From contig JACQZF010000065.1 of the NCBI GenBank assembly GCA_016213945.1, positions 1-33,991 of the forward strand: a stretch of DNA of 33,991 nt, in the 5' to 3' direction. Position 1 is the stretch's first letter; the number at the start of each line of letters is the position of its first letter. The stretch comes from Nitrospirota bacterium (lineage in GTDB: Bacteria; Nitrospirota; Thermodesulfovibrionia; UBA6902). The notes below the pieces were generated by a model, which saw only the letters and a program-made list of their open reading frames with translations, was not told the origin of the DNA and searched no databases. Both the position numbers and the translations under genes were made by a program. Shown piece by piece: positions 2 through 23,161 of this stretch.

Positions 2-3000
2 GTAGCATCTGACGGAACTTACACTTTATATCCCTGGGCGAAAGATGCGGCAGGCAATGTGTCCGCGGCATTTGCGACACCGAGAACCGTAGTAGTTGAC
101 ACAACTGCTCCTTCAGTAACGAGCACGGTACCGGCAAACGGAGCAACAGGCGTAGCATTAAACAGCACAGTAACCGTCAACTGGAATGAACCGGTTGACT
201 GCGCAACAGTCACTACTACAAGTGTAACGGTAAACCCGGTGGTAGGATGGACAAAGACCTCATGCAGCGGCGGTCAGGCAGTATTCACGCCAAGCGGGCA
301 GACAAGCATCACAAGCTACACAATAACAGTGGGTACTGGAATAAGAGACGCAAACGGCAACGCTATGACAGCGAATTACTCGTTCTCATACATAACGGCT
401 GACGTAATAGCCCCGTCATCAACAATAACCGCACCGGCAAACGGTGCAATTGTAAACAGCGCATCAGCGAACCCGTACACAATCAGCGGCGCTGCGACGG
501 ATAACGTTTCTGTAACCGGCATAGAGGTATCGACAAACGGGGGGACCACCTGGGTTGCCGCGACATGCACCGGATGTCCCGGAGTAAATGTAACCTGGAG
601 CTATTCATGGACGCTCCCCGCTGACGGAAGCTACAACATCAGGAGCCGCGCGAAAGACGCCTCAAACAATACAGAGACCCCGGGCCCGGGCAACACTGTT
701 ACAGTCGACAGGACAGCGCCTTCTGTCAGCAGCACAAATCCCGCTAACGGCGCAACCGGAACAGCGCTAAACAGCAATGTGACTATAATTTGGTCGGAAA
801 ATGTAAACTGTTCAACTGTCAACATCACAAATATCACGATCAATGCGGGCGGATGGACACTTTCAACATGTTCAAACAACCAGGCAATATTTACAACAAG
901 CGGGCAGGCCGGAATGACTGCTTACACCGTAACCGTAACAACAGGAGTCAGGGATGCAAACGGCAACCCGATGGCTGCCATTAACTCATTCTCATATACG
1001 ACCGCTGATGTTACGCCGCCTGCGTCAACTATAACATCACCCGCAAACGGCGCGACTATAAACAGCGCCTCACCGAATCCTTACACGATCAGCGGTTCCG
1101 CAAGCGACAACGTTGCGGTGCAGGGCATTGAGGTATCAACAAACGGCGGCGCAACGTGGAGTCCCGCGACTTGCACCGGATGCCCCGGAGTAAACGTAAC
1201 CTGGACGTATTCATGGACACTCCCTGCTGACGGAAGCTACAACATCAGGAGCCGCGCAAGGGATGCTTCAAACAATACCGAGACACCCGGCGCAGGCAGC
1301 ACTGTAACAATCGACAGGACCGCACCCTCTGTCAACAGCACAGTGCCTGTTAACGGCGCTCTCGATGTACTGATAAACAGCAACGTAACGATAGCCTGGA
1401 GCGAGAATGTAAACTGCGCTACCGTCAACACTATAAACATCACCTCGACAAATCCGGGTTGGGCATTATTGACCTGTGGAGCAAATCAGGCGATATTTAC
1501 AGCAAGCACCCAGGCATATTCAACAACATATTCGGTAACAGTGACTACGGGAGTAACGGATACAGCGGGAAATTCAATTACAGCTAATTACCTGTTCTCA
1601 TATACGACTGAGGCCATGCCGAACAACCCTCCCTCTAACCCCACGGGACTTACACAGTACAAAACCGATGAAGTTACAACTGTCGGCCAGGGTAAATGGA
1701 GCAATGAGACCACGGTAATAATGAAAGCGGCTGTTTCCGATCCCAATGGGGACACTGTTCAGTTACAGGTTGAAATACAGCCCAATACATCTGCTTTCAC
1801 CGGCACGCCTAATTGCACAAGCGGCCCCGCCATAGCCAGCGGAGGCACAGCAAAAGCAACCTGCGGCGGTCTTATAAACGGCTCGCAGTATAAGTGGCAG
1901 GCACGCACGATAGATGCTTATGGTCTCACAAGCGGCTGGGCACAGTTCGGGACAAGCGACCAGGATTTCGGAGTTGATACAGTGGCCCCGACCTACATAT
2001 GGAATACTCCGGCAGCAGGTACATATTACAAGAACGGCAGTCCTATCAACGTTGATGTAACCGTCACCGAGGCTGGAGGCTCAGGCATACTTAACGGAAC
2101 AGACTGCACTGCTGCGATAGACAGCGCTGCTGCAAGTTTTACTGGCATCGTGATTTATTCGCCGTCAACCGGAAAATGTACCGGCACTCTTACACTTAAC
2201 AATCCGTCAGGCCTTATTAACGGCGCGCATAATCTCACGGTACAAGTCCCCGATACCGCGGGCAACAGTGTACAGAGCGCTGCGCGTTTAATTAATATTG
2301 ACAATACCCTGCCGTCATCAGCGGTTATAACACCCTCAAACGGGACAATGATAAACACAGGTTCCCCGAACCCATATACAGTAAGCGGCACTGCATCTGA
2401 CAATGCAATCGTTTCAAGTATTGAAGTATCAACTAACGGAGGAACTACCTGGGTAGCAGCGGCATGTACAGGATGCCCGGGAGCAAACGTGACATGGACG
2501 TATAGCTGGACGCTTCCTGCTGACGGAAGTTACAACATCAAGGGCCGTGCAAAAGACAGTGCGAATAATACAGAGACCCCGGGCGCAGGCGTCACGGTAA
2601 CCGTAGACAGGACAGTGCCTTCTGTCAGCACAACTTCACCTTCAAACGGTGCATCGGGAACGGCATTAAACGGCAGTGTGACTATCTTCTGGACGGAAAA
2701 CGTTAATTGCACAACGGTCAGCGCCTCCAGCATAACAATAAGCTCCGGAGGCTGGATGCTTTCATCGTGTTCGGGCAGCCAGGCGGTATTCACGACAAGC
2801 GGACAAACGAACCTGACTTCATACACAGTGACTGTTTCCACCGCGGTAAAAGACCAGGCAGGCAATTCGATGGCTGCAAATTATGTATTCTCATTTACTA
2901 CTGCTGCAATGAGCCTTCCGACCCTGACTTATCCGGCAGCGCCTTATGATAATGGGGTAGACCCCGACACGGGAGATACGAGGATCACATTTACCTTTGC

Positions 3001-3844
3001 AATTGTTTATACGGATCTTGAAAATGACGCGCCTGCCGCAGGTTATCCAAAAATTTATATCGGAGACAATGACGGATACTTCAGCTATGCAATGATCGAG
3101 GAAAATCCGGCAGACACCAATTATACCGACGGCAAAATTTATTCCTTTACAACCGGCATCGGGGCCGCCCAGGATTTGAGATTCTACTTCAAAGTACAGG
3201 CGGCAACCGGCGATACCACGGCAGTACAGCTTCCGTCAGGCGTCTCAGCATATAATGTGGGGCCTGCCGTATATCTGCTGAGTGGCTACAATTTAGCAGG
3301 CGCGCCTAAAAATATAGCGAGCGGCTCATGGACATACACCTCCGTACTCGGAGACGATTCAGGGTACCAGTTGTGTTACAAATGGGATTCTACCGGACTT
3401 GATACGGTAAGCGGCACTCAAGGCTCATGGATCAACAACACCTCCGGAGTGGTGCAAACCGGAGCAAGCTATTACATCTGGGCCACCGACACGCTGAGAA
3501 GAGTTGACGAACCGGCAGGGGTTGCTAATGATCCGAGGGCTTTTATTGACATTACCCTTGATGCTAATGGCGGATGGACTGCGATCACGAATCCTTACAA
3601 TGCTATAATTAAGCTTCAGGATGTGAAGGTTGTAAGAGGCGCGATGGAATATACTTATACGCAGGCAGTGATGAACGGCTGGATATCCAACTCCATATAT
3701 GAGTGGGAAGGCGACGGCCCCGGATGGTCCTTCAAGGCATTTAATGACAATCCTGCGGCTACCCTGGAGCCATGGATGGGTTACTTTATTTACGTTTATG
3801 ATACGACTTCGACAAAACTGAGGATATACGCCCCGGCCCCATAA
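2..3844 (+). CDS. Large secreted Ig-repeat surface protein (5' end missing)
   Basis: The reading frame is open from base 2, so the gene enters from the left edge; 1280 residues are visible. A GTG at 59 is in frame but lies inside a continuing domain and is not a credible start. The protein alternates two kinds of beta-sandwich module. One is SbsA/Big_5-like, beginning TAPSV..T.PANGATG..LN, with four copies (about residues 30, 235, 440 and 870). The other resembles bacterial Ig modules with a CTGCPG Cys pair and SWTLPADGSYNI, with three copies. A fibronectin-like stretch follows copy three. The C-terminal 300 residues form a separate Trp/Tyr-rich module ending shortly after WMGYFIYVYD; no sortase, autotransporter or membrane anchor is visible. 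Probable role: extracellular adhesin or structural surface protein, by family analogy only. The next gene starts 20 bp downstream on the same strand. Confidence 0.85.
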   Translation, partial: VASDGTYTLYPWAKDAAGNVSAAFATPRTVVVDTTAPSVTSTVPANGATGVALNSTVTVNWNEPVDCATVTTTSVTVNPVVGWTKTSCSGGQAVFTPSGQTSITSYTITVGTGIRDANGNAMTANYSFSYITADVIAPSSTITAPANGAIVNSASANPYTISGAATDNVSVTGIEVSTNGGTTWVAATCTGCPGVNVTWSYSWTLPADGSYNIRSRAKDASNNTETPGPGNTVTVDRTAPSVSSTNPANGATGTALNSNVTIIWSENVNCSTVNITNITINAGGWTLSTCSNNQAIFTTSGQAGMTAYTVTVTTGVRDANGNPMAAINSFSYTTADVTPPASTITSPANGATINSASPNPYTISGSASDNVAVQGIEVSTNGGATWSPATCTGCPGVNVTWTYSWTLPADGSYNIRSRARDASNNTETPGAGSTVTIDRTAPSVNSTVPVNGALDVLINSNVTIAWSENVNCATVNTINITSTNPGWALLTCGANQAIFTASTQAYSTTYSVTVTTGVTDTAGNSITANYLFSYTTEAMPNNPPSNPTGLTQYKTDEVTTVGQGKWSNETTVIMKAAVSDPNGDTVQLQVEIQPNTSAFTGTPNCTSGPAIASGGTAKATCGGLINGSQYKWQARTIDAYGLTSGWAQFGTSDQDFGVDTVAPTYIWNTPAAGTYYKNGSPINVDVTVTEAGGSGILNGTDCTAAIDSAAASFTGIVIYSPSTGKCTGTLTLNNPSGLINGAHNLTVQVPDTAGNSVQSAARLINIDNTLPSSAVITPSNGTMINTGSPNPYTVSGTASDNAIVSSIEVSTNGGTTWVAAACTGCPGANVTWTYSWTLPADGSYNIKGRAKDSANNTETPGAGVTVTVDRTVPSVSTTSPSNGASGTALNGSVTIFWTENVNCTTVSASSITISSGGWMLSSCSGSQAVFTTSGQTNLTSYTVTVSTAVKDQAGNSMAANYVFSFTTAAMSLPTLTYPAAPYDNGVDPDTGDTRITFTFAIVYTDLENDAPAAGYPKIYIGDNDGYFSYAMIEENPADTNYTDGKIYSFTTGIGAAQDLRFYFKVQAATGDTTAVQLPSGVSAYNVGPAVYLLSGYNLAGAPKNIASGSWTYTSVLGDDSGYQLCYKWDSTGLDTVSGTQGSWINNTSGVVQTGASYYIWATDTLRRVDEPAGVANDPRAFIDITLDANGGWTAITNPYNAIIKLQDVKVVRGAMEYTYTQAVMNGWISNSIYEWEGDGPGWSFKAFNDNPAATLEPWMGYFIYVYDTTSTKLRIYAPAP
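103..1610 (+). repeat. Tandem ~607-bp Ig-module repeat inside the surface protein gene
   Basis: Two full tandem units of roughly 607 bp and a third partial one are visible, judged from the recurring segment around 106, 715 and 1321. A related single unit recurs at about 2320-2900. The stretches at 605-651 and 1211-1257 are nearly base-identical, pointing to recent duplication or gene conversion within the gene. Such repeats also make the region prone to assembly collapse. Confidence 0.7.
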
Positions 3845-12476: not shown

Positions 12477-13334
12477 TCATGGGAATACAACTTGTACGCT
12501 TACAGGTGATGTTGTCGGCGGCTGCTGATCTATCGGCGGCTCAACAGGCAGATGCTGAGCTATCGGGGGCAGAGTTTCAGGCGCGCCAGTCCCGGTGTCC
12601 GGAGACGAAACCAGGGCTGTCTCAACCGGCTCAGGAACAGTTATCTCATGAAATCCTACGTCGGTATCGCTGGAAAGCCGGTCCATAAGAGACGCCGGGG
12701 CCGGTTCAGGCTGCGAAGGCGGCTCTCCCTCACAAACGTCCGTCTTCCAGCCGCGCTGCAACTGTACATCTCCCTTAACATTCTCATCTATATTCCTGAC
12801 CTCGACATCGCCTTCCTTGCTTACGATAGTTGCGCACAGCTTACACCCGCTGTCAGGAGAAAATTTCTCCCCGGCATCCGTTTTAAGCTTACATTGTTCC
12901 CCGCCTTTTACCCACGTTTCGGAAAGTATCACAGTTCCCCTTGCCGCAGTCACTGATGTAGGTGTATGTATTTCAAGGTCCGTATTGCCTACAACTGTTC
13001 TCAACTTTCCGTCTATCAGATTAAATACTGATTTCCCCCTCCTTCCATCGCTGTACATGTATTCTTTTACGACCAGCTTTGATTTTTCGCCGAGTGTAAG
13101 TACGCTGTCGTCTCTAAAAAGCATCTTCGCCCTTGAGGCTTCAAGTGTTGTGACCGTGTCAATAGAAAGTATGCCGTCTTTCGCCTTTGCCTCAAGCTCC
13201 CGCTTTTCCCTTTCGATGACCGCCTTGTTCTTGACGGCGACTATGGCGCCCACCTCATTTTCCGCAGATGCCAAGCCTGAAAAACACATGCCAAGGACCA
13301 TTAAAACCCATGCTGCTTTCCATCCCGTTCTCAT
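12477..13334 (-). CDS. Periplasmic FecR-domain protein with Cys insertion (cassette 2)
   Basis: A 285-aa protein starting at ATG 13334 with GGAGG seven bases upstream. A signal peptide (about 1-24, ending LASA) is followed by a FecR domain (about 28-182): AVKNKAVIEREK, MLFRDDSVLTLGEKSKL, SVFNLIDGKLRTVVGNT, HTPTSVTAARGT. Classical FecR proteins couple TonB receptors to sigma factors. This one lacks the inner-membrane helix and N-terminal sigma-contact region, so it belongs to the exported FecR-domain group. Unlike its paralogue at 16417, it has a loop with Cys148, Cys164 and Cys167, and Cys201, possibly disulfides or a metal site. The Pro-rich tail ends in a short beta-strand-like SVQVVFP, which the paralogue also has (VKINIKFPE). 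Its stop overlaps an ATG in the next frame, implying tight coupling to the lipoprotein. Confidence 0.9.
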   Translation of the reverse strand: MRTGWKAAWVLMVLGMCFSGLASAENEVGAIVAVKNKAVIEREKRELEAKAKDGILSIDTVTTLEASRAKMLFRDDSVLTLGEKSKLVVKEYMYSDGRRGKSVFNLIDGKLRTVVGNTDLEIHTPTSVTAARGTVILSETWVKGGEQCKLKTDAGEKFSPDSGCKLCATIVSKEGDVEVRNIDENVKGDVQLQRGWKTDVCEGEPPSQPEPAPASLMDRLSSDTDVGFHEITVPEPVETALVSSPDTGTGAPETLPPIAQHLPVEPPIDQQPPTTSPVSVQVVFP

Positions 13335-13359
13335 TTCTTAACCTCCATTTATCTTTTAT

Positions 13360-14655
13360 TTAAAACTTAACATTCAGAAATAAACTCGTTACCCAGCGCT
13401 CGTAATCATATGCCGCTGTATTTGAATCGTCCCTTATGTAATTCTGCCCTGCCGTCACGCTGAATCTCTCCATGAATATTTTTGAAACAGAGACAGCGGC
13501 TGTGTATATCCTGTCTTCCCTGTTGTCATCCGCGGCCCTGGCAGAGTCTTTATACCTCTTGTAGTAGTATTCCCCGTTAAGGCCCGCGTATATCCCGGCT
13601 GGGAAACGGAATCTGAATTCTGTAAATATTCTATTGCCTCTGTAATCCCAGAAAGTCATTGCTGTCTGATCTTCGTTATAGTAATAACCCGCCTTCGCAG
13701 AGATAAAATCATTGACGGGGATGTTCTGTGTTACGCCCACAATGTTATCTTCGCCTGTCCTGTCAGAGTTATCTTCAAAAAAGCCGGAATCCATGAAGCG
13801 GGTGCGTTTATATTTGTATTCAAACTCTGTTGACAGACCCGCGCCTTCCGAAATTACAAGAGAAGGCGATATCGAAAACGCATAATCATAATCATCCCAG
13901 CCCACGTATGCATATTCCGTAGAATATAATCCCTTGAGGGTCAACACTGGTGAGATTCTGTAAGAGCCTTTCAGCTCAAACAGATGCTGGGTCACGTTAA
14001 ATTCATTCAGCCTGTTATGAAGGCTCTGGTAAATACTGTATGCAACAGAGCCTTCAATGTTCCGGTCTTTATAAAAATTGTATTTGCCCTTCCCGTATAA
14101 TACGGTCCTCCAGTCTGACTCCCTTGAAATATTGCTTGACAAGGTCCCGTCTTCCGGGCCCAGAACAACATTGCTGTCATACTGCTCCCCGACTGAAAGA
14201 TTTACCGACCAGGGCCTGGGTTTCCCTGTGCCGGCAAGAAGCATGAGGTATCCTCTGGCATCTTCGGCAAACTCTGTGTCGCGCCCGTATTTCAGGGTAT
14301 TCTCAAAATATTCCCTCGCCTCATCATCTCTGCCCCTGTTGTAATAGTAGATTCCAAGTTCAAGATTTGTCCTCGGTTCCCTGACATTATAGGAAAGCGC
14401 CTTTGCAAGCTGCGCCTCTGCCTCAATGTTATTTGTACGGCTGAGCGCGATTCCAAGATAAAGCGCCGCAACCGGATCATCGGGTTTCTCCCCGAGGGCC
14501 GCCCTGAATTCCCCGACAGCTTTATCGAAGTTTTTCTTTTCGAGACTTACAACACCTTTCGCAATATGCTTCTCATAGTCAGCTTCACTCGCATACAATA
14601 AGTTAGCAAATAAAAAAAGCATGGTTGCCGCAATAAGTAAAATGTTTTTTTTCAT
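13360..14655 (-). CDS. TPR plus outer-membrane beta-barrel protein (cassette 2)
   Basis: A 431-aa protein with AAAGGAGATGAG just before ATG 14655. A signal peptide (1-22, ending LYA) precedes three to four TPR-type helical repeats (about 26-140: HIAKGVVSLEKKNFDKAVGEF, PVAALYLGIALSR, RTNLELGIYYYNRGR). A beta-barrel of alternating polar/aromatic strands covers about 148-431 and ends in the BAM-type signal SLFLNVKF. The barrel starts with VGEQYDSNVVLGPEDG, and the paralogue has nearly the same words. An N-terminal TPR domain followed by a ~280-residue barrel is the layout of Slam (DUF560) surface-lipoprotein exporters and of some exopolysaccharide porins; here it precedes a lipoprotein gene. The export role is inference. 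An operator-like element and promoter-like sequence lie upstream. Confidence 0.9.
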   Translation of the reverse strand: MKKNILLIAATMLFLFANLLYASEADYEKHIAKGVVSLEKKNFDKAVGEFRAALGEKPDDPVAALYLGIALSRTNNIEAEAQLAKALSYNVREPRTNLELGIYYYNRGRDDEAREYFENTLKYGRDTEFAEDARGYLMLLAGTGKPRPWSVNLSVGEQYDSNVVLGPEDGTLSSNISRESDWRTVLYGKGKYNFYKDRNIEGSVAYSIYQSLHNRLNEFNVTQHLFELKGSYRISPVLTLKGLYSTEYAYVGWDDYDYAFSISPSLVISEGAGLSTEFEYKYKRTRFMDSGFFEDNSDRTGEDNIVGVTQNIPVNDFISAKAGYYYNEDQTAMTFWDYRGNRIFTEFRFRFPAGIYAGLNGEYYYKRYKDSARAADDNREDRIYTAAVSVSKIFMERFSVTAGQNYIRDDSNTAAYDYERWVTSLFLNVKF

Positions 14656-14716
14656 CTCATCTCCTTTCTGCCTTTTTAAGATTGTCCTTAGAATACATAT
14701 TGTAGAGTTTCATTTG

Positions 14717-14731
14717 AAGGTAAAAATCACC
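14717..14731. promoter_or_regulatory. Operator-like element upstream of cassette 2
   Basis: AAGGTAAAAATCACC here differs in one base from the element at 18631-18645 upstream of cassette 1. It lies 62 bp before the start codon of the TPR-barrel gene. It is also half of a larger inverted arrangement, GTAAAAATCAC-CTCACC-GTGAATTTAC (14720-14746). A shared regulator binding site or shared promoter element is the simplest reading. Confidence 0.5.
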
Positions 14732-14772
14732 TCACCGTGAATTTACGCATTTCAACAATAAGAAAAAATGAC

Positions 14773-14801
14773 ATACTCCCCGAGGCAAGCCTGCGGGGTA
14801 T
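14773..14801 (-). terminator. Hairpin between the two cassettes, likely terminator
   Basis: The minus strand folds as CCCCG-c-AGGC-TT-GCCT-CGGGG, flanked by ATA/TAT pairs, and ATTTTTTCTT follows about 8 nt later. It lies about 105 nt after the cassette 1 lipoprotein stop. Together with the operator-like element it suggests that the cassettes are separate transcription units. The remaining part of the 250-bp gap (14802-14905) shows no gene. Confidence 0.5.
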
Positions 14802-14905
14802 CTTAAAGAAAAAGAGACAACTGGTCTTTATGTAACTGTTGGTACTCATTTGTACGCCCTTGTTCTTTAACATATTTGCTGATCGTATTTTCATTGCCTT
14901 GCTAC

Positions 14906-16390
14906 CTATTGAATATTTTCCGAGTTCGCTTCATACGACATGGTGTTGACGGGCGTAATCGTATCTCCACTCATCTCAAACACTGTCCAGAGGGTCCCTC
15001 CCTGATTAGCAGGGACATTGTAAGTTGCAACAACATAATTGTTGCGATAGACCTTTACCTGCGCCCCTGAATTTGAAAGTGCATTGCTGTTTGAACTATC
15101 GGAATTTGTAAAATCATGTACAGAGAACCTGTATTCGCCGTCTGTCTGCTGATGAATGGTGATGGTCTCAGGCCCGTAACCGCTTGTATTGTCCCTGTCC
15201 ATAATCACGTAATCAGGCCATGGGTTTGGTTGATTCAAACCGCCTGTGTAATAAAAATACATATGGAATCTCGTCCCGCCAGGAAGCGGGCCAGTCAAAT
15301 GAGCATCTAAATCGGCGGGCGTTGCTCCCCAGGTGAGGATAATCCTTGTCTCTCCTGGAACAATTATGGGAGTTATCGAAGCGTTCTGATCGGTGATTAC
15401 AACCCCGCCGGCAATAATTAAGGTAAAGTAAGTTGTATTGTACCCTGCTCCGCTGACCTCTGCCGTATAATTGCCGGCATTAAAATTATTAACTTCGTAA
15501 TTGTACCCGCCAAAATCCATTGTTGTCTGCGTTGCAACTATCGTTCCTGTTGCTGCATTAATACCTGCCCGCAGATTCACCGTTAAGCCGTTAACTATCA
15601 TGCCGTCCAAGGCATTGACTATTTTACCGGATGCGTTACCTAAGCCGGCATGTCCGGCATCTATCAGAGAAACCGTTTCAAGATATGTTATAGCGCATTC
15701 CTGGACTGTAACATTTTCATAGGTTGCTGCAATGTAACCGCTTTTTGAAAACTGAATGGAATACCCGCTGCCAGCCGGAGACGACAGGGAATAGGCGCCG
15801 TTCGCGTCAGTTGCCGCAGAGGCTTTCAAGTTCCCTTGCTTGTAGATTTCAACCATAATGCCCTCAAGAGGCAATCCCGTCAGGGCATCCTTCACACCGC
15901 CTGACAGCGCATTTGATTGGACCGAAAAATCCATGTTCATGTCGAGATCCAGAGAATCTTCGTTGACATCTATAGTTGTGTCGCCTCTGTATAAAGCGCA
16001 GCCTGATTGACTCTTTGCCTCCACAATAAAATGTCTTCCGCTGCCTTTTGGCACATCGATATCAGTTGTTATTTCACTTTGTCCCTCAACAACGTCAATT
16101 GATGTTTCTATTTTATCCATATCAACCGCTTCCACTGTAATCACGACCTTTCTAACGTTTGAAGGTATTCCGCCTGCCGCAACTGCCTCTGAAGGAGTCA
16201 GAATTTTAAAAAAACCGGCGGCTTTCGCAAAGAAACTGTTTTTCTCTGCCTTGAAACTTGCAGTGGGCGCGCCGCTTCCGATTGTTATTGTCACGCGTGA
16301 AGTCCTTCCCGATGCGCTTTCCCCGCCGCTGCAGCCGATAAGGCCCGCCAGCATCAGGCTGAATAAAATTGCTGTTAATATTTTTTTCAT
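14906..16390 (-). CDS. Lipoprotein with carboxypeptidase-regulatory-like and YfaP/DUF2135-like domains (cassette 1)
   Basis: The start at ATG 16390 is chosen because GGGGGAGG lies 8 nt upstream; an in-frame ATG at 16408 precedes that site. The 494-aa product has a perfect lipobox, LIGC, at Cys20 (MKKILTAILFSLMLAGLIGC), with Ser at +2. The module at about 30-150 (SRVTITIGSG, IPSNVRKVVITVEAVDM, DVPKGSGRHFIVEA) matches the same region of the cassette 2 lipoprotein. Two carboxypeptidase-regulatory-like beta-sandwiches follow (about 160-245: GGVKDALTGLPLEGIMVEIY; about 250-335). The C-terminal domain (about 345-480) carries LTWGATPADLDAHLTGP and DGEYRFSVHDF, typical of the YfaP/DUF2135 family. It is likely an outer-membrane or surface-displayed binding protein. 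The last gene of its cassette, it lies 27 bp after the FecR-domain gene. Confidence 0.88.
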   Translation of the reverse strand: MKKILTAILFSLMLAGLIGCSGGESASGRTSRVTITIGSGAPTASFKAEKNSFFAKAAGFFKILTPSEAVAAGGIPSNVRKVVITVEAVDMDKIETSIDVVEGQSEITTDIDVPKGSGRHFIVEAKSQSGCALYRGDTTIDVNEDSLDLDMNMDFSVQSNALSGGVKDALTGLPLEGIMVEIYKQGNLKASAATDANGAYSLSSPAGSGYSIQFSKSGYIAATYENVTVQECAITYLETVSLIDAGHAGLGNASGKIVNALDGMIVNGLTVNLRAGINAATGTIVATQTTMDFGGYNYEVNNFNAGNYTAEVSGAGYNTTYFTLIIAGGVVITDQNASITPIIVPGETRIILTWGATPADLDAHLTGPLPGGTRFHMYFYYTGGLNQPNPWPDYVIMDRDNTSGYGPETITIHQQTDGEYRFSVHDFTNSDSSNSNALSNSGAQVKVYRNNYVVATYNVPANQGGTLWTVFEMSGDTITPVNTMSYEANSENIQ

Positions 16391-16416
16391 TTTTTTATCC
16401 TCCCCCATCTCATCCC

Positions 16417-17238
16417 TTACTCAGGAAACTTTATATTAATTTTCACTGCAGAACTATTTAACGGCTGCTGATCTACCGGAGGCGCGACAGGCGGCTGCTC
16501 AACCAGAGGCGACTGCTGATTTACGGGAGGTTCTGAAATCTGGGGCTGATCTACAACTATAACTGCTGGGCCGATCTCAATCTCCGCAGGGTCCGGTAAA
16601 GAAACTTCGTGATATCCGGTATCCGTGCTGCTCCTCAGTCTCTCAACCTCCGAGGCAGGCGCTGGTATTGCGGCAGGCACGGGTTCATTCTCAAATACGG
16701 TAACCATCATCCCCGCTGTCAGCGCTGTGCTGCCTGTTATTTCATCATCTTTATTCTTTACATCCACCTCTCCGTCAACGCATAGTATAGTTGTAAACTT
16801 CCTTCCGCCCACCTCGCCGGTTTCAAAAATTATTACCGTGCCTCTCGCCGCTGCTACAGTGGTTGGGGTATGAACTTCAAACTCCGTATTCCCCACAACC
16901 GACCTCATCTTTCCGTCAATAAGATTAAAAACCGATTTACCTCTTTTTCCTTCACTGTATATATATTCTTTTATTACAACCTTTGAATTCTCCCCGAGCG
17001 TTAATACACTGTCGTCCCTGAAAAGCATCTTTATCCTTGAAGCCTCGCGGGTTGATATCGCATCAATGGAAAGCACAGGCTCCTTAACCTTCGCGTCTAT
17101 TTCTTTACTTTCTCTTTCAATGACCGCCTTGTTCTTCACGGCGATTACAGCGCCGACATCTGTTACCGCTAAAACAATACACGGCAGACCGAGGATAAAC
17201 AGACCGGTTAAAAATCCTAACGCCCGTTCAGTTTTCAT
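16417..17238 (-). CDS. Periplasmic FecR-domain protein (cassette 1)
   Basis: A 273-aa protein. ATG 17238 has AAGGAGA upstream; the in-frame ATG 17256 lies before that site, directly after the preceding TAG. A signal peptide (about 1-25) is followed by a FecR domain (about 28-165) almost superposable on the cassette 2 copy: AVKNKAVIERESKE, MLFRDDSVLTLGENSKVVIK, SVFNLIDGKMRSVVGNT, HTPTTVAAARGT. It lacks the three-Cys insertion of that copy. After the domain come RSSTDTGYHEVSLPDP (conserved in both copies), a Gln/Pro-rich linker, and a terminal strand VKINIKFPE. The linker and strand look designed to reach and dock on a partner, possibly the barrel or lipoprotein encoded either side. That is inference. 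Confidence 0.9.
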   Translation of the reverse strand: MKTERALGFLTGLFILGLPCIVLAVTDVGAVIAVKNKAVIERESKEIDAKVKEPVLSIDAISTREASRIKMLFRDDSVLTLGENSKVVIKEYIYSEGKRGKSVFNLIDGKMRSVVGNTEFEVHTPTTVAAARGTVIIFETGEVGGRKFTTILCVDGEVDVKNKDDEITGSTALTAGMMVTVFENEPVPAAIPAPASEVERLRSSTDTGYHEVSLPDPAEIEIGPAVIVVDQPQISEPPVNQQSPLVEQPPVAPPVDQQPLNSSAVKINIKFPE

Positions 17239-17256
17239 ATTAAAAATCTCCTTCAT

Positions 17257-18549
17257 CTAAAATTTGGCATTTATAAAAACACTCGTTATCCCGCGCTTAT
17301 AATCGTACGAGTCGGTATTTGAATCGTTCCTGATATAAAGCCCTCCTGCTGTTACGGTGTATGTCCCCGAAAGTGCCTTTATAACTGATATGCCGGCTGT
17401 ATAAATATTGTCTTCCCTTTTACCGGATGACGCAGTAGAGGAGTCTTTGTATCTCGCATTGTAGTATTCTCCGCTAAGGTCTATAAAAATATTTCGGGGA
17501 AGATAGAATCTCGTTCCTGCGCTGAGTTTGTTGCCCCTGTATCCCCAGAACCTTTCCCTTGTTGTTTCTTCATCATGAGAATAGCCAGCGTTTAGGGAAA
17601 CAAAACTATTTAGCGGGATGTTCTGTGTTATGCCTATCAGATTGTTCCTGCCGGTCCTGTCGGAATTCCCGGGAAAAGATTCCGATTCTTGAAAGTGAAT
17701 CCGGCTGTATTCATACTTAATCTCGGTGTATAATCCGCTGCCCTCTGAAATAATTAAAGACGGCGATATTGAATGGGCGTAATCATAATCATCCCACCCT
17801 ACATACACATATTCATACGTATATAATCCTTTGAGGGTCAATCGCGGGGACAAGACGCGGGCGGCCTTCATTTCAAACATGTGCTGGGTCACGTTAAAAT
17901 CATGCAGCCTGTTATGCAGGCTTTGATAGAGACCGTAGCCGACAGAACCCTCGGCGTCCTGTTTTTTGAGGAAATTATATCTGCCCTTCAGGTAGAATAT
18001 TGTCCTCCAGTCCGATTTCCTTGATACTACCGCGCCGTCCTCGGGACCGAGGATAACATTACTGTCATATTGCTCGCCGATGGATGCATTTAGCGCCCAC
18101 TGCCGCTTCGGCCCTCCGGTTTTGTCTATCTTCCGGAGATATTCTTCAGCCTTTGCCGAGAAGTCCGTATCCGGCGCGAACTTTATCGTATTCTCAAAAT
18201 AGTCTTTCGCCTCGTCATATATGGCATGGTTGAAATAATAAATGCCTAATTCAAGGTTTGCCCTCGGCTCCTGAAAGTTATATGTAAGGGCTTTTACGAG
18301 CACAGCCTCGGCATCTTTATTGTTTGCGCGGCTGAAAGCTATGCCTAAATAAAGAGTAGACATGGGGTCATCAGGCTTCTCGTTGAGGGCGGCCCTGAAT
18401 TCGTCAGCAGCGTGACCGTAGTCTTTTTCTTCCATGCCTGCGATGCCGTTAGCTACGTGCTTTTGATAGTTCGTTTCGCCTGCATATGATATGGTTATTG
18501 ATAAAGATAAAAAGACGATTAAAACTGCAAGGAGCGGTATTGTTTTCAT
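17257..18549 (-). CDS. TPR plus outer-membrane beta-barrel protein (cassette 1)
   Basis: A 430-aa paralogue of the protein at 13360, alike along its whole length. The signal peptide (1-22, ending SYA) precedes TPR repeats (about 26-140: MEEKDYGHAADEFRAALNEK, PMSTLYLGIAFSRANN, RANLELGIYYFNHA). The barrel (about 150-430) opens with IGEQYDSNVILGPEDG and includes LHNRLHDFNVTQHMFEMKA and WDDYDYAHSISPSLIISEGSG. It ends SVFINAKF, with the terminal Phe expected for BAM substrates. The FecR-domain gene follows immediately. The ribosome-binding site is weak (AAAGGG). The CRP-type regulator gene ends 102 bp upstream, and the operator-like element lies in that gap. The shared layout with Slam-type exporters suggests moving or anchoring the partner lipoprotein; a porin role is the alternative. 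Confidence 0.9.
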   Translation of the reverse strand: MKTIPLLAVLIVFLSLSITISYAGETNYQKHVANGIAGMEEKDYGHAADEFRAALNEKPDDPMSTLYLGIAFSRANNKDAEAVLVKALTYNFQEPRANLELGIYYFNHAIYDEAKDYFENTIKFAPDTDFSAKAEEYLRKIDKTGGPKRQWALNASIGEQYDSNVILGPEDGAVVSRKSDWRTIFYLKGRYNFLKKQDAEGSVGYGLYQSLHNRLHDFNVTQHMFEMKAARVLSPRLTLKGLYTYEYVYVGWDDYDYAHSISPSLIISEGSGLYTEIKYEYSRIHFQESESFPGNSDRTGRNNLIGITQNIPLNSFVSLNAGYSHDEETTRERFWGYRGNKLSAGTRFYLPRNIFIDLSGEYYNARYKDSSTASSGKREDNIYTAGISVIKALSGTYTVTAGGLYIRNDSNTDSYDYKRGITSVFINAKF

Positions 18550-18651: not shown

Positions 18652-19341
18652 TCAACTATCAGGATGAATTAACAAATGACCGTCTTTTTCCGTCACTGTC
18701 CCTTTGGTTGACAGGACCTTCAGCGCCTTTGACACTGCTTCTCTTGATGCACCTATGCTTGAAGCCAGTTCTTTATGTGTGTATTTTTTAATTTTATAAA
18801 CGCCGTTTTTGTCCCTCTCGCCTTCCTTTATTGCGTTATGCATCAGGAACCTCATAAGTCTTTCGCTGACGTCAAGGAACACAAGGGATTCTATCACCTC
18901 GTCGGATTTCCTCAGCCTTGCCACCAGAATGGACAGCAGGTTAATGGCAATCGAAGGGTCCTGCCTCATCGTGCCGAGGAACCTGTCCCGTTTTAACACG
19001 GCAAAGGACGTTGCCACTTCAGCCATGATGTTAGCGGAGCGGGACTTGCCGTCTATGAGGCTCATCTCACCGAAGAAATCTCCTTCGTTGAAGGTAGTCA
19101 GGATAAATTCCTCTCCGTCAGGACCGAGGAGGCTTGCCTTCACCTTCCCTTTGAGGACAATAAAAAGGTCCGTACCTTCATCAGACTGGAAAACGACGTC
19201 ATCGCCCTTTTTAACGGAGATGATCTTAAAATCGTCAATTATATTTTTGAGATGCTTATCGGAAAAACTGCTGAACAAGGGGACCCTTCTGAGAAATTTT
19301 TCAATTAACTGTTTTTCTTTTTCGCCTATAAACATTTTCAT
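18652..19341 (-). CDS. CRP-type transcriptional regulator with intact cNMP site
   Basis: A 229-aa protein. ATG 19341 overlaps the preceding stop (ATGA); ATG 19335 in the same frame has better spacing to GGAGA, so the true start may be two codons later. Further in-frame sequence to 19401 lies inside the preceding gene and is discounted. The cNMP domain (about 20-130) has the cassette FGEMSLIDGKSRSAN, with ribose-contacting Glu92 and phosphate-contacting Arg101, so cAMP or cGMP binding is expected. The C-terminal HTH (187-210) reads YTHKELASSIGASREAVSKALK. It is translationally coupled to the cNMP/rhodanese gene upstream and sits directly before the duplicated envelope cassettes, making it the best candidate for their regulator. 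Confidence 0.92.
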   Translation of the reverse strand: MKMFIGEKEKQLIEKFLRRVPLFSSFSDKHLKNIIDDFKIISVKKGDDVVFQSDEGTDLFIVLKGKVKASLLGPDGEEFILTTFNEGDFFGEMSLIDGKSRSANIMAEVATSFAVLKRDRFLGTMRQDPSIAINLLSILVARLRKSDEVIESLVFLDVSERLMRFLMHNAIKEGERDKNGVYKIKKYTHKELASSIGASREAVSKALKVLSTKGTVTEKDGHLLIHPDS

Positions 19342-20426
19342 TCTCCGGGCGACTTGGGAAGATGGATACCATCTTTCGTTCCTCCCACAGGACCTTCCCA
19401 TGCGCTCAAACCACCGCGTATGCCTTTCGCTTTAAACCCAAGGCTTTTCAAAATGAAGGCCGCGGGAAATCCCCAGGCCTCCATGCCGCAGTATGTATAA
19501 TATTCCTTTGACGGATCCAGCTCCGTATACCTCTTGCGCAGAAATTCAAGCGGGATATTGATCGCTCCCTGTATGTGCTCCTCCTCATACTGAGGCTGAA
19601 ACCTGGTATCGATAAAGATTATATTTTTTAGATCCTCCGGAGTGATGTCTTCGGGGAAAACATGCTCAAGAAACGACGCCTTCACTGTCTTGTCGAAATC
19701 GGCCCTGGAAAGCGCCAGTACAATTGTGTCCTCTATCGCGCGGCACGTTGCGCTGCGCCGCTTGCCGGAGATCAATGCTTCTTCGCCGAATCCCTCTCCT
19801 TCACTCAGTACGGCCACCTGTTCCGGGTCCTCTCTGTTTTCCTTCTTTATGACCGCCACCTTCCCGGACTTAATAACATAATACGCATCTCCGACCTCTC
19901 CTTCTCTGATGATATCTTCGCTGAAGGCATAATTCTTCTCCACGAATTTATCGGACAGGGCGAACATCTTTTCCGGCTCAAGAAGAGCGAAGGGCTGGAG
20001 GGTTTTTATTTTGTTGTATTCGGAATAGTCATTGGCCTTTGTACCCATAATGCATGAAATGGCGGAGTCTATCTGGACAATCTCATCAAAGTCTTTTTTG
20101 TAAAGCTTGTAGAGTTTCACATCCGTTCTGGCTGTGACGGAAGTAAAACGGGGAGAGCAGGTGAGTAAGGCCATCTCGCCGAAACCTTCTCCGCATTTCA
20201 GGGATGTTATCCTGGCCTCCTGTCCCCATTTGGTGCTTTTAAAGACCTCGATTTCACCTTTTTCTACCAGGTAAAAAGAATCCGCAGGCGAGCCTTCTTT
20301 AATAATCAATGTCCCTGCAGGCAATTCAACAATTTCAAGTTTTTTGGAAAGCGCCTCCAGTGCGCCGTCTGAAAGATGAGAAAAATACGAATACAGCCTT
20401 AGAATGTTAAATGATAATGTTCCCAT
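19338..20426 (-). CDS. Double cNMP-binding domain protein fused to rhodanese (copy 2)
   Basis: A 362-aa cytoplasmic protein. I start at ATG 20426 after GGAAGGGA; a GTG at 20447 is in frame but precedes that site. Two tandem cNMP-binding domains (about 10-130 and 145-255) have intact cassettes: FGEMALLTCSPRFTS (Glu84, Arg93) and FGEEALISGKRRSAT (Glu215, Arg224). A rhodanese domain (about 265-350: IFIDTRFQPQYEEEHIQGAI, GIRGGLSAWEG) follows. Its putative active-site Cys313 is present, but the loop reads CGMEAW instead of the usual CxxGxRS/A, so sulfurtransferase activity is doubtful. No DNA-binding domain is seen; the protein would convert cNMP binding into protein-protein or persulfide signalling. 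It overlaps the CRP-type gene by 4 bp. Confidence 0.9.
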   Translation of the reverse strand: MGTLSFNILRLYSYFSHLSDGALEALSKKLEIVELPAGTLIIKEGSPADSFYLVEKGEIEVFKSTKWGQEARITSLKCGEGFGEMALLTCSPRFTSVTARTDVKLYKLYKKDFDEIVQIDSAISCIMGTKANDYSEYNKIKTLQPFALLEPEKMFALSDKFVEKNYAFSEDIIREGEVGDAYYVIKSGKVAVIKKENREDPEQVAVLSEGEGFGEEALISGKRRSATCRAIEDTIVLALSRADFDKTVKASFLEHVFPEDITPEDLKNIIFIDTRFQPQYEEEHIQGAINIPLEFLRKRYTELDPSKEYYTYCGMEAWGFPAAFILKSLGFKAKGIRGGLSAWEGPVGGTKDGIHLPKSPGE

Positions 20427-20522
20427 TGTTATTCCCTTCCCGGTCACTTAACAACCAGCCACAGGGTCTCTTTCCTTACTTATTGCATTCTGAAAGGGTC
20501 ACGCCCCTTTTGAGCCGCATGA

Positions 20523-21596
20523 TCAAGTCGGCGTGAAGGATGCGTGAACACCTTCTGCATTACCTTCCACAGGTCCGGTCCAGTTCATCAAACCGCCCTG
20601 AATACTTTTGGCTTTATAGCCCTGGCTGTTTAAAAGAAATGCCCCTACCGCGCTTCTTGCGCCTAAAAGGCAATAGACAAAATACTCTTTTGAGGGGTCC
20701 AGCTCCGAATATCTTTTTCTCAGTTCATCAAGCGGGATGTGCATGGTGTTGGGGATACGTTCTTCGTCAAATTCCATCTGCATACGCACGTCAAGAAAAG
20801 CCGGGTGTTCTATTTTCAGCACATCTTCCGCTGCAATTTCATCAAGGAAAGAAGACTTCATGATCCGCTCGAAGTCGTCATGAGAAAGCGTCCAAACCAC
20901 CGTATCTTCGGCAGCCCTGCATGTGGCGCTGCGCGGGGCCCCGGTAATGAGAGCCTCTTCTCCAAAGCCCTGTCCTTCCTGCAGGGTTGCTACATGTTCC
21001 GGCTCGTCTTCAAACATCTTTTTTAAAACGGCGACACTGCCCGATTTGATAATGTAGTACACGTCGCCTTTTTCACCCTGGACAATGATATCTTCACCGG
21101 CTGAGTATTTGCGCTCTGCAAGCTTATCCAAAATCGCAGCCATCTTTTCAGGCTCAAGCAGGGCAAACGGCTGGAGGGTTTTTATGTGGTTGTACTGGGC
21201 ATAGCTCTGAGCCTGCTTTTCAGCCATAAGAGAGAATGCGGAATCCATGCGGACTATTTCTTCAAAGTCCGTCTTGTACAATTTCAGCAATTTGACGTCT
21301 GTTTTTGCTTTGACAGAACAGCAGCGCGGCGAACATGTCAACAAAGCCATCTCGCCGAAGCCCTTAGCATGACCGACAACTGAAAGCTTTGCCTTTTGTC
21401 CCCATTGAGTTTTTTTAAAAACCTCCACCTCCCCTTCTTTCACAAGATAGAAGGCGTCAGCAGGCACATCCTCTTTAATAATTTCAGCGCCTGCGGGAAG
21501 TTCAACTGCGTGGAGTTTTTTTGAAATCGCCTCCAGGGCCCCGTCTGACAGATAGGAAAAGTAACAATATTTTTTTAGATCTTTGTAATCAGACAT
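20523..21596 (-). CDS. Double cNMP-binding domain protein fused to rhodanese (copy 1)
   Basis: A 357-aa paralogue of the protein at 19338, with GGAGG seven bases before ATG 21596. cNMP domain 1 (about 8-125) has FGEMALLTCSPRCCS (Glu82, Arg91) and domain 2 (about 140-250) has FGEEALITGAPRSAT (Glu213, Arg222), so both should bind a cyclic nucleotide. The rhodanese domain (about 258-340) keeps a canonical active loop, CLLGARSA (Cys309), unlike the degenerate copy 2. It is first in the minus-strand series, 96 bp upstream of copy 2, a gap holding only a short AAAGGG/CCCTTT hairpin. The 169-bp region before it, up to the glutaredoxin stop, is AT-rich with no gene and presumably holds its promoter. 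Confidence 0.9.
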   Translation of the reverse strand: MSDYKDLKKYCYFSYLSDGALEAISKKLHAVELPAGAEIIKEDVPADAFYLVKEGEVEVFKKTQWGQKAKLSVVGHAKGFGEMALLTCSPRCCSVKAKTDVKLLKLYKTDFEEIVRMDSAFSLMAEKQAQSYAQYNHIKTLQPFALLEPEKMAAILDKLAERKYSAGEDIIVQGEKGDVYYIIKSGSVAVLKKMFEDEPEHVATLQEGQGFGEEALITGAPRSATCRAAEDTVVWTLSHDDFERIMKSSFLDEIAAEDVLKIEHPAFLDVRMQMEFDEERIPNTMHIPLDELRKRYSELDPSKEYFVYCLLGARSAVGAFLLNSQGYKAKSIQGGLMNWTGPVEGNAEGVHASFTPT

Positions 21597-21765: not shown

Positions 21766-22002
21766 TTACTTGCTCAGCAATTCGTCGATCTTTTCCTGAT
21801 TAAATCCGGTTACAGCCTCACCGTTGATTAAGATTAAAGGGAGGGTCATAATGCCCATTTTCCTCAGGTCATAAATAGCGGCCGGCTCTGTTGCAATATT
21901 GCGCTCGGTGTAGTTAACGCCTTTTTGTGAAAGATACTCTTTCACTTTAGTACAGTACATTCAATTGGTCTGGCTGTAAACGACGACAGTCTTCTCCGGC
22001 AT
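21766..22002 (-). CDS. Glutaredoxin-like selenoprotein (UxxC), TGA read as selenocysteine
   Basis: ATG 22002 has an ideal GGAGG-ATTTTTTT spacer. The frame reads MPEKTVVVYSQTN, then TGA (21963-21961), then MYCTKVKEYLSQKGVNYTERN to a TAA at 21766. The TGA falls exactly at the first Cys of the glutaredoxin CxxC, giving Sec14-Met-Tyr-Cys17. The conserved TLPLILINGEAVTGF (cis-Pro and glutathione-site region) follows, and the total of 78 aa is normal for the family. A bSECIS-like hairpin lies 15 nt after the TGA. A start at the ATG after the TGA would remove beta-strand 1 and half of the active site and has no ribosome-binding site. Role: thiol-disulfide or deglutathionylation redox chemistry, perhaps with the divergent reductase. 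A sequencing error (TGA for TGC/TGT) is the alternative. selA, selB and selC are not in the window. Confidence 0.82.
21927..21945 (-). promoter_or_regulatory. Bacterial SECIS-like hairpin for the glutaredoxin selenoprotein
   Basis: In the mRNA sense the sequence is a perfect 7-bp stem GTGAAAG/CTTTCAC around the loop AGTAT. The stem begins 15 nt after the in-frame TGA, so the apical loop is 22 nt from it, and the second loop base is G. These features agree with the general bacterial SECIS rules: a hairpin immediately downstream, a loop 16-37 nt from UGA, and a G among the first two loop bases. It lies inside the coding region, as expected for bacteria. Confidence 0.75.
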
Positions 22003-22060
22003 AAAAAAATCCTCCACTGTAGTGATAATTTATAATTGGAAATTCAAAAAGGTCTTCAAT

Positions 22061-22213: not shown

Positions 22214-23161
22214 ATGGCAGAAGAATTATATGATGTGATTATTATCGGCGGTGGGCCTGCCGGACTAAGCGCCGCGCAATATGCTTCCCGCGCCAAGCTT
22301 AAGACTATCGTCCTTGACAAATCGCAGGCAGCAGGCGCACTGGCGTTTTCAAGCAGGATTGAAAATTATCCGGGACTCCCTGAACCTGTCACAGGAAAGG
22401 ATTTGCTCGATACCTTCCGCAATCAGGCAATAAAATTCGGCGCTGAATATGTTGAAACCAGGGTCATAGGAGTAAAACTTGAAGGAGAAATAAAAGAGGT
22501 CAGCGCGCTGGACAAGACATACAAGGGGAAAACTTTAATCATCGCAACCGGCGCAATGGGCAGGGCAGCAAGCATCAAAGGAGAGAAAGAATTTCTTGGC
22601 AAGGGTGTGTGTTACTGTGCAATATGTGATGCCGCGATCTTCTTTGATCAAACCGTCTGTGTAATCGGCGACAGCGAAGAAGCCCTTAAGGAAACCGGGG
22701 TCGTCGCCAAATTTGCCTCTAAAGTTTACTTGATTTCTCCTTCAAAAACTCTCAAGCTGTCAGAGCATCCTCCTTTTGATACGTCAAAAGTAACTATTAT
22801 GTCAGGCTATCGTGTGATGTCAATTGAAGGCAACAGCATCGTAGAAAACGTGAAGGTCAGGAGTGTCGAATCAAACGAAGAGCAGGACATTCAAACAAAC
22901 GGCGTTTTTGTATATTTGCACGGCAACAAACCCATAGTGGACTTTCTTGGTGGATCTGTTGAGCTTAGCGAGGAGTCCTGCGTAAGCACTAATAAAATGA
23001 TGGAGACTTCCATCCCCGGCATTTTTGCGGCAGGAGATGTCATTTGTACCGAAATACGGCAGGTCGTCACCGCTGCGTCAAATGGATGTATCGCGGCCCT
23101 TTCCGCGGAAAAATTTATACATCACAGAAAACGGATGAAATACGACTGGGCGAAAAGTTAA
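22214..23161 (+). CDS. Thioredoxin reductase-like flavoprotein with degenerate NADPH motifs
   Basis: A 315-aa protein with AGGAGG seven bases before its ATG. The FAD motif GGGPAGLSAA (12-21), ATGA (111-114), and a second FAD motif FAAGDVICTEIRQVVTAASNG (271-291) are intact. The redox-active pair is Cys135-Ala-Ile-Cys138, where thioredoxin reductase has CATC, with an additional Cys133. The nucleotide-binding segment is unusual: where TrxB has GGGxxA and HRRxxxR, this protein has VIGDSEEA (150-157) and ISPSKTLK (174-181). NADPH use is therefore doubtful. Ferredoxin- or NADH-linked relatives of TrxB lose the same motifs. It is divergent from the selenocysteine glutaredoxin gene, and the two genes have matching GGAGGATTTTT leaders, so its substrate may be that protein. 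Confidence 0.88.
   Translation: MAEELYDVIIIGGGPAGLSAAQYASRAKLKTIVLDKSQAAGALAFSSRIENYPGLPEPVTGKDLLDTFRNQAIKFGAEYVETRVIGVKLEGEIKEVSALDKTYKGKTLIIATGAMGRAASIKGEKEFLGKGVCYCAICDAAIFFDQTVCVIGDSEEALKETGVVAKFASKVYLISPSKTLKLSEHPPFDTSKVTIMSGYRVMSIEGNSIVENVKVRSVESNEEQDIQTNGVFVYLHGNKPIVDFLGGSVELSEESCVSTNKMMETSIPGIFAAGDVICTEIRQVVTAASNGCIAALSAEKFIHHRKRMKYDWAKS

Follow-up and report, generated by a model that had tools for sequence, protein, structure and literature searches.

Positions 22002 to 21766 on the reverse strand of the window, the 33,991-nucleotide stretch of a Nitrospirota contig analysed here, very probably hold a functional selenoprotein gene, in which a UGA codon is read as selenocysteine (Sec) by means of an RNA hairpin to give a 78-amino-acid NrdH/YruB-like redoxin. 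The reading frame, the conservation of the TGA, a constrained and covarying hairpin and a complete set of Sec decoding genes are all seen in the genomes, and we infer Sec insertion in vivo as well as the redox chemistry, the electron donor and the substrate.

The gene and the conservation of its TGA codon

The strand and the coordinates given for a hidden glutaredoxin in the original prediction were correct. Translated with TGA as U, the gene (21766-22002, -) reads MPEKTVVVYSQTN-U-MYCTKVKEYLSQKG...LLSK and ends with TAA. It contains a single internal TGA at 21963-21961, which is codon 14 and the first position of the active-site motif U14-M-Y-C17, predicted from the conservation of this column to be read as Sec. 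A ribosome-binding site region with the sequence GTGGAGG (approximately 22010-22016, -) stands before a run of T and the ATG (GTGGAGGATTTTTTT-ATG), so that the predicted ribosome-binding site is indeed present, with GGAGG 8 nt 5' of the start codon. The sigma-70-like promoter, TTGATA-18-TATAAT at 22090-22061 (-), was found as well and matches at 11 of 12 positions, although this is a consensus match only and the consensus scan of the region gave six promoter-like sites where 2.8 were expected. The full protein was matched by the Pfam model PF00462 (Glutaredoxin) with 55.9 bits (E 4.9e-15; cut-off 22.9) and carries the U-x-x-C motif, as expected of a Sec-glutaredoxin. If the TGA is not read through, the longest ORF under table 11 is the 64-amino-acid one foreseen in the original prediction, which starts at the ATG behind the TGA (21766-21960, -) and matches PF00462 with 41.4 bits.

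Homologues were searched in 61 genomes, i.e., the window genome and 60 relatives. Protein matches with an internal TGA were obtained at 10 places in eight of these genomes, which belong to several genera, one of the places being a paralogue in the window genome itself (G000:C55:7250-7483). All ten members from the bacterial family have TGA, and only TGA, in the same column. The Cys three residues further on (Cys17) is invariant in this family, the protein is conserved on both sides of the TGA, including the residues V8, Y9, S10 and Q11 ahead of it, and the frame past the TGA is intact and conserved rather than disrupted in close homologues. The active-site motif of the clade varies between UMYC, UMFC and UIFC. 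A class-wide search of 230 genomes revealed a second, distant group with the motif UxDC, in most members of which the TGA is present (TGA in 18 and Cys, encoded by TGC or TGT, in 2 of the 20 members inspected). Cys was found at the TGA column in L039, L050, L017, L018, L056 and L060. The homologues inspected thus have either Sec (TGA) or Cys at this column, as had been anticipated, and this occurrence of UGA where homologues have Cys is the pattern of a bacterial selenoprotein. A plasmid search gave only redoxins with less than 60% identity.

The selA gene is present in 33 of the 37 genomes of the bacterial family, most of which do not have the Sec-glutaredoxin gene, and the protein is therefore dispensable. 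One genome (G024, 88% complete) has a TGA-bearing glutaredoxin and no selA match, probably due to its incompleteness. The second copy in the window genome (L063 7250-7483) is 58% identical to the Sec-glutaredoxin of the window and by eye is flanked by a secreted DsrE-like ORF on one side and by a small CxxCH-containing, cytochrome-like ORF on the other.

The hairpin and the decoding of UGA

The original prediction proposed a search for a bSECIS element. Behind the UGA a bSECIS-like hairpin of 8 bp, GUGAAAGA-GUA-UCUUUCAC, was found at 21945-21927 (-). With a 3-nt loop whose first base is G, a spacing of 23 nt from the UGA and a stem length within 4-16 bp it satisfies the published bSECIS criteria (PMC13188914); the G of the apical loop lies 24 nt past the UGA. 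In all ten family members the UGA is followed by the hairpin GUGAAAGA-GU(A/U)-UCUUUC, with 8 bp and in one case (L020) 7 bp. Rfam gave nothing above its gathering scores over the window. As the folding energy (z = -1.53) is weak to modest when taken alone, the case for the hairpin rests on conservation, and its constraint was therefore tested. Among codon pairs for the same amino acid, synonymous differences occur in 9/282 (3%) within the hairpin and in 794/1503 (53%) outside, and the hairpin has the lowest synonymous divergence of all 7-codon windows.

Covariation was analyzed for 25 Sec genes from both groups, the family and the UxDC group. Here, 97.5% of the cells are paired and compensatory changes are present at both ends of the stem, where the outermost pair alternates between G-C and C-G and the innermost changes from A-U to G-C. 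The covariation score of 0.257 is above all 500 shuffles (0.156) and all slid controls (at most 0.083), with the reservation that the shuffle test is inflated by relatedness, which the slid control retains, and that one of the tested sequences supplied the structure, which somewhat favours the score of the hairpin. In the Cys-containing relatives L039 and L050 the protein is kept and the stem shows mismatches in its middle (pairing by eye, n=2). One UxDC member (L044 1501-1728) has kept the TGA with a hairpin of different sequence that is closer to the UGA, and L039, its relative from the same genus, has Cys instead of the TGA.

The genes for Sec decoding, whose presence elsewhere in the genome the original prediction made a check, were all found in the window genome, a draft of 101 contigs that is 98% complete. 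The genes selA (626 bits) and selB (361 bits) are adjacent, the tRNA-Sec gene selC with the anticodon TCA lies just downstream of them on the same contig, and selD was detected with 329 bits. In this selD (L073 4107-5243, G000:C91) the active site (GGUAAK) includes an in-frame TGA; the gene itself probably encodes a selenoprotein and can thus be taken as an internal positive control for the use of Sec. UxxK-type Sec-SelD proteins are known (PMC9312934), and the UAAK of the selD found here matches them.

In the proposed mechanism the ribosome would start at 22002 and arrive at the UGA in codon 14, where the hairpin at 21945-21927 would recruit SelB with Sec-tRNA(Sec), leading to the insertion of Sec and to a 78-amino-acid redoxin of the NrdH/YruB-like type whose active site is U-x-x-C.

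The inserted amino acid is not readable from DNA alone, and the UGA might be read through by a near-cognate Trp or Cys tRNA or be reassigned. However, nothing in favour of such a reading was found, the genome holds the full Sec system, relatives without the TGA have Cys at this position, the hairpin fits a bSECIS and, against a genome-wide reassignment, table 11 gives normal ends for the neighbouring ORFs. We regard this reading as very unlikely. Even less probable is that the TGA stems from an error of sequencing or assembly, or that a Cys-type glutaredoxin has become a pseudogene through a genuine stop. In a single genome, and this one is a draft of 101 contigs, a single-base change of a Cys codon would look alike, but independent genomes and the paralogue on G000:C55 carry the same TGA, the frame past it is intact and conserved and purifying selection acts on the RNA hairpin, and this explanation was rejected. 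Just as improbable, and equally rejected, is that the real product is a single-Cys redoxin of 64 amino acids, for although an ATG follows the TGA and a PF00462 match remains with a lower score (41 vs 56 bits), this codon is ATT, ATC or ATA in 4 of 10 orthologues (L011, L012, L014, L015), the GGAGG stands before the upstream ATG, the residues V8 to Q11 are conserved as protein and such a product would have neither the catalytic residue nor the first beta strand.

Probable reductant, gene neighbourhood and possible substrate

For the Sec-redoxin, the chemistry of the family predicts that the selenolate of Sec14 would act as the nucleophile on a substrate disulfide or an oxidised group and that Cys17 would be the resolving residue, giving a selenenylsulfide for which a flavin thioredoxin reductase, and not glutathione, would then be the reductant. 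Sec is known to raise the catalytic efficiency of glutaredoxins (PMC13188914).

No match to the glutathione synthetase model PF02955 was found in the 98%-complete window genome, a result which refers to PF02955 only and not to uptake or GshF-type enzymes, and glutathione is probably absent from the host. Three thioredoxin-reductase-like enzymes score high in the same genome (G000:C65, C17 and C46). Taken together, this points to a selenothiol redoxin driven by thioredoxin reductase, and a flavin thioredoxin reductase is the likely reductant rather than glutathione. A real Sec redoxin could still work as a classical glutathione-dependent glutaredoxin, an alternative that concerns the mechanism only. 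It is suggested by the name of the family and by the description of the reviewed Sec-glutaredoxins as glutathione enzymes (PMC13188914). Beside the missing PF02955 match, the best curated models for the protein speak against it, as YruB and NrdH rank ahead of glutaredoxin 3. Furthermore, the region after the cis-Pro (TGFNQ) does not have the GG-D/S motif, which we take to be the usual glutathione-binding motif. We consider glutathione dependence improbable. Of the name glutaredoxin in the original prediction the fold (PF00462) is therefore retained, whereas the YruB and NrdH models come nearest to the sequence, which does not reach their curated cut-offs, and the classical activity is unlikely.

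Divergently to the redoxin gene, a flavin thioredoxin reductase of the FFTR/DTR type with a CAIC active site is encoded at 22214-23161 (+). Its best relative in the PDB is 5J60 (E 1e-82) from Gloeobacter, and ferredoxin-dependent flavin thioredoxin reductases of the 5J60 type cannot use NADPH (PMC12796991). The motifs GGGxxA and HRRDxxR, both present in the canonical thioredoxin reductase of the window genome (L075), are replaced in this protein by IGDSEEA and SPSKTLK, and the C-terminal Trp is kept like W315 of FFTR. Downstream of the redoxin gene two proteins with two cNMP-binding domains and a C-terminal rhodanese domain (Pfam) are encoded at 20523-21596 (-) and 19338-20447 (-). The two tandem proteins are alike, and two further such proteins are encoded nearby in G001.

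From this arrangement a glutathione-free, ferredoxin-driven Sec relay could be imagined, in which the redoxin and the divergent FFTR act on the cNMP-binding/rhodanese proteins, but we hold this to be doubtful, a little more so than glutathione dependence. G004 is the only genome besides that of the window in which FFTR and Sec-glutaredoxin are adjacent. G001 has the orthologous glutaredoxin and cNMP-rhodanese locus and no close relative of the FFTR, and the same absence is seen in G010, G013, G024 and G025, which all have the Sec-glutaredoxin. FFTR-like copies with 61-70% identity are widespread in the bacterial family, and most of the genomes that bear them are without a Sec-glutaredoxin. The FFTR was therefore down-weighted as a dedicated partner, and a dedicated ferredoxin-FFTR-SecGrx relay, although possible, finds no support in the co-occurrence of the genes. 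If it were true, the FFTR-SecGrx-rhodanese relay would constitute a previously undescribed module of sulfur or redox signalling.

Our best guess is that the Sec-redoxin acts on a disulfide or persulfide of the downstream rhodanese proteins as its partners, because the order of the glutaredoxin and the two cNMP/rhodanese genes is kept in G001 and G004. The protein may also have a role in general thiol or metal stress, since paralogues in other genera are located near genes for heavy-metal P-type ATPases. By eye, Sec-glutaredoxins of both groups have such neighbours (L069 5478-6408, L068 8784-12126 and L070 1-2178), in L069 together with CsoR-like and DUF302-like ORFs.

Further away in the window, a large, repetitive protein in which the Ig-like unit 'PANGATGVALNSTVTV' recurs many times is encoded at its start (59-3844, +). 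At 12477-18549 (-) a TPR/outer-membrane-like protein, a FecR-like protein and a lipoprotein were recognised by eye as a set that occurs twice in tandem, apparently a segmental duplication.

Relation to known redoxins

Sec at the N-terminal position of CxxC, which the original prediction described as known in redox selenoproteins, is well documented, as the Sec-containing UxxC glutaredoxin is among the established prokaryotic selenoproteins (PMC9312934, PMC13188914). It was catalogued in 2006 in Geobacter, Alkaliphilus and Moorella (PMC1794560; also PMC13188914, Table 1). These proteins share the PF00462 fold family and the UxxC motif with N-terminal Sec with the protein of the window, which differs in being of a Nitrospirota type, NrdH/YruB-like, with UMYC, UMFC or UIFC and probably without glutathione in the host. 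It matches TIGR02196 (GlrX_YruB) and TIGR02194 (GlrX_NrdH) over the full length with 72.5 and 58.1 bits, which is below the curated cut-offs of 88.55 and 85.75, respectively, and in contrast to these redoxins its first active-site Cys is replaced by Sec. The UXX-star selenoprotein families share the location of Sec within a glutaredoxin-like fold. However, the protein stays below their cut-offs as well (NF041212, 43.6/66 bits; NF041211, 36.2/100; NF041114, 21.5/72) and, being a UxxC protein, has kept the resolving Cys17. The closest solved sequence is that of the 'Glutaredoxin' entries PDB 7c10, 7c12 and 7c13 (profile E 2e-25) with CPHC at the aligned active site; the crystallised chains have Cys and not Sec at the first position, and in 7c12 the second position is Ser.

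The gene is thus well supported as a lineage-specific, NrdH/YruB-like member of the recognised Sec-glutaredoxins and not as a new kind of protein. The analysis corrects the annotation of a conserved selenoprotein which is cut short by the standard table-11 gene call and extends the Sec-glutaredoxins by a NrdH/YruB-like clade of Nitrospirota type. In addition, the near-invariant hairpin provides a clean example of a bSECIS, with the same stem and compensated ends in two diverged groups of redoxins.
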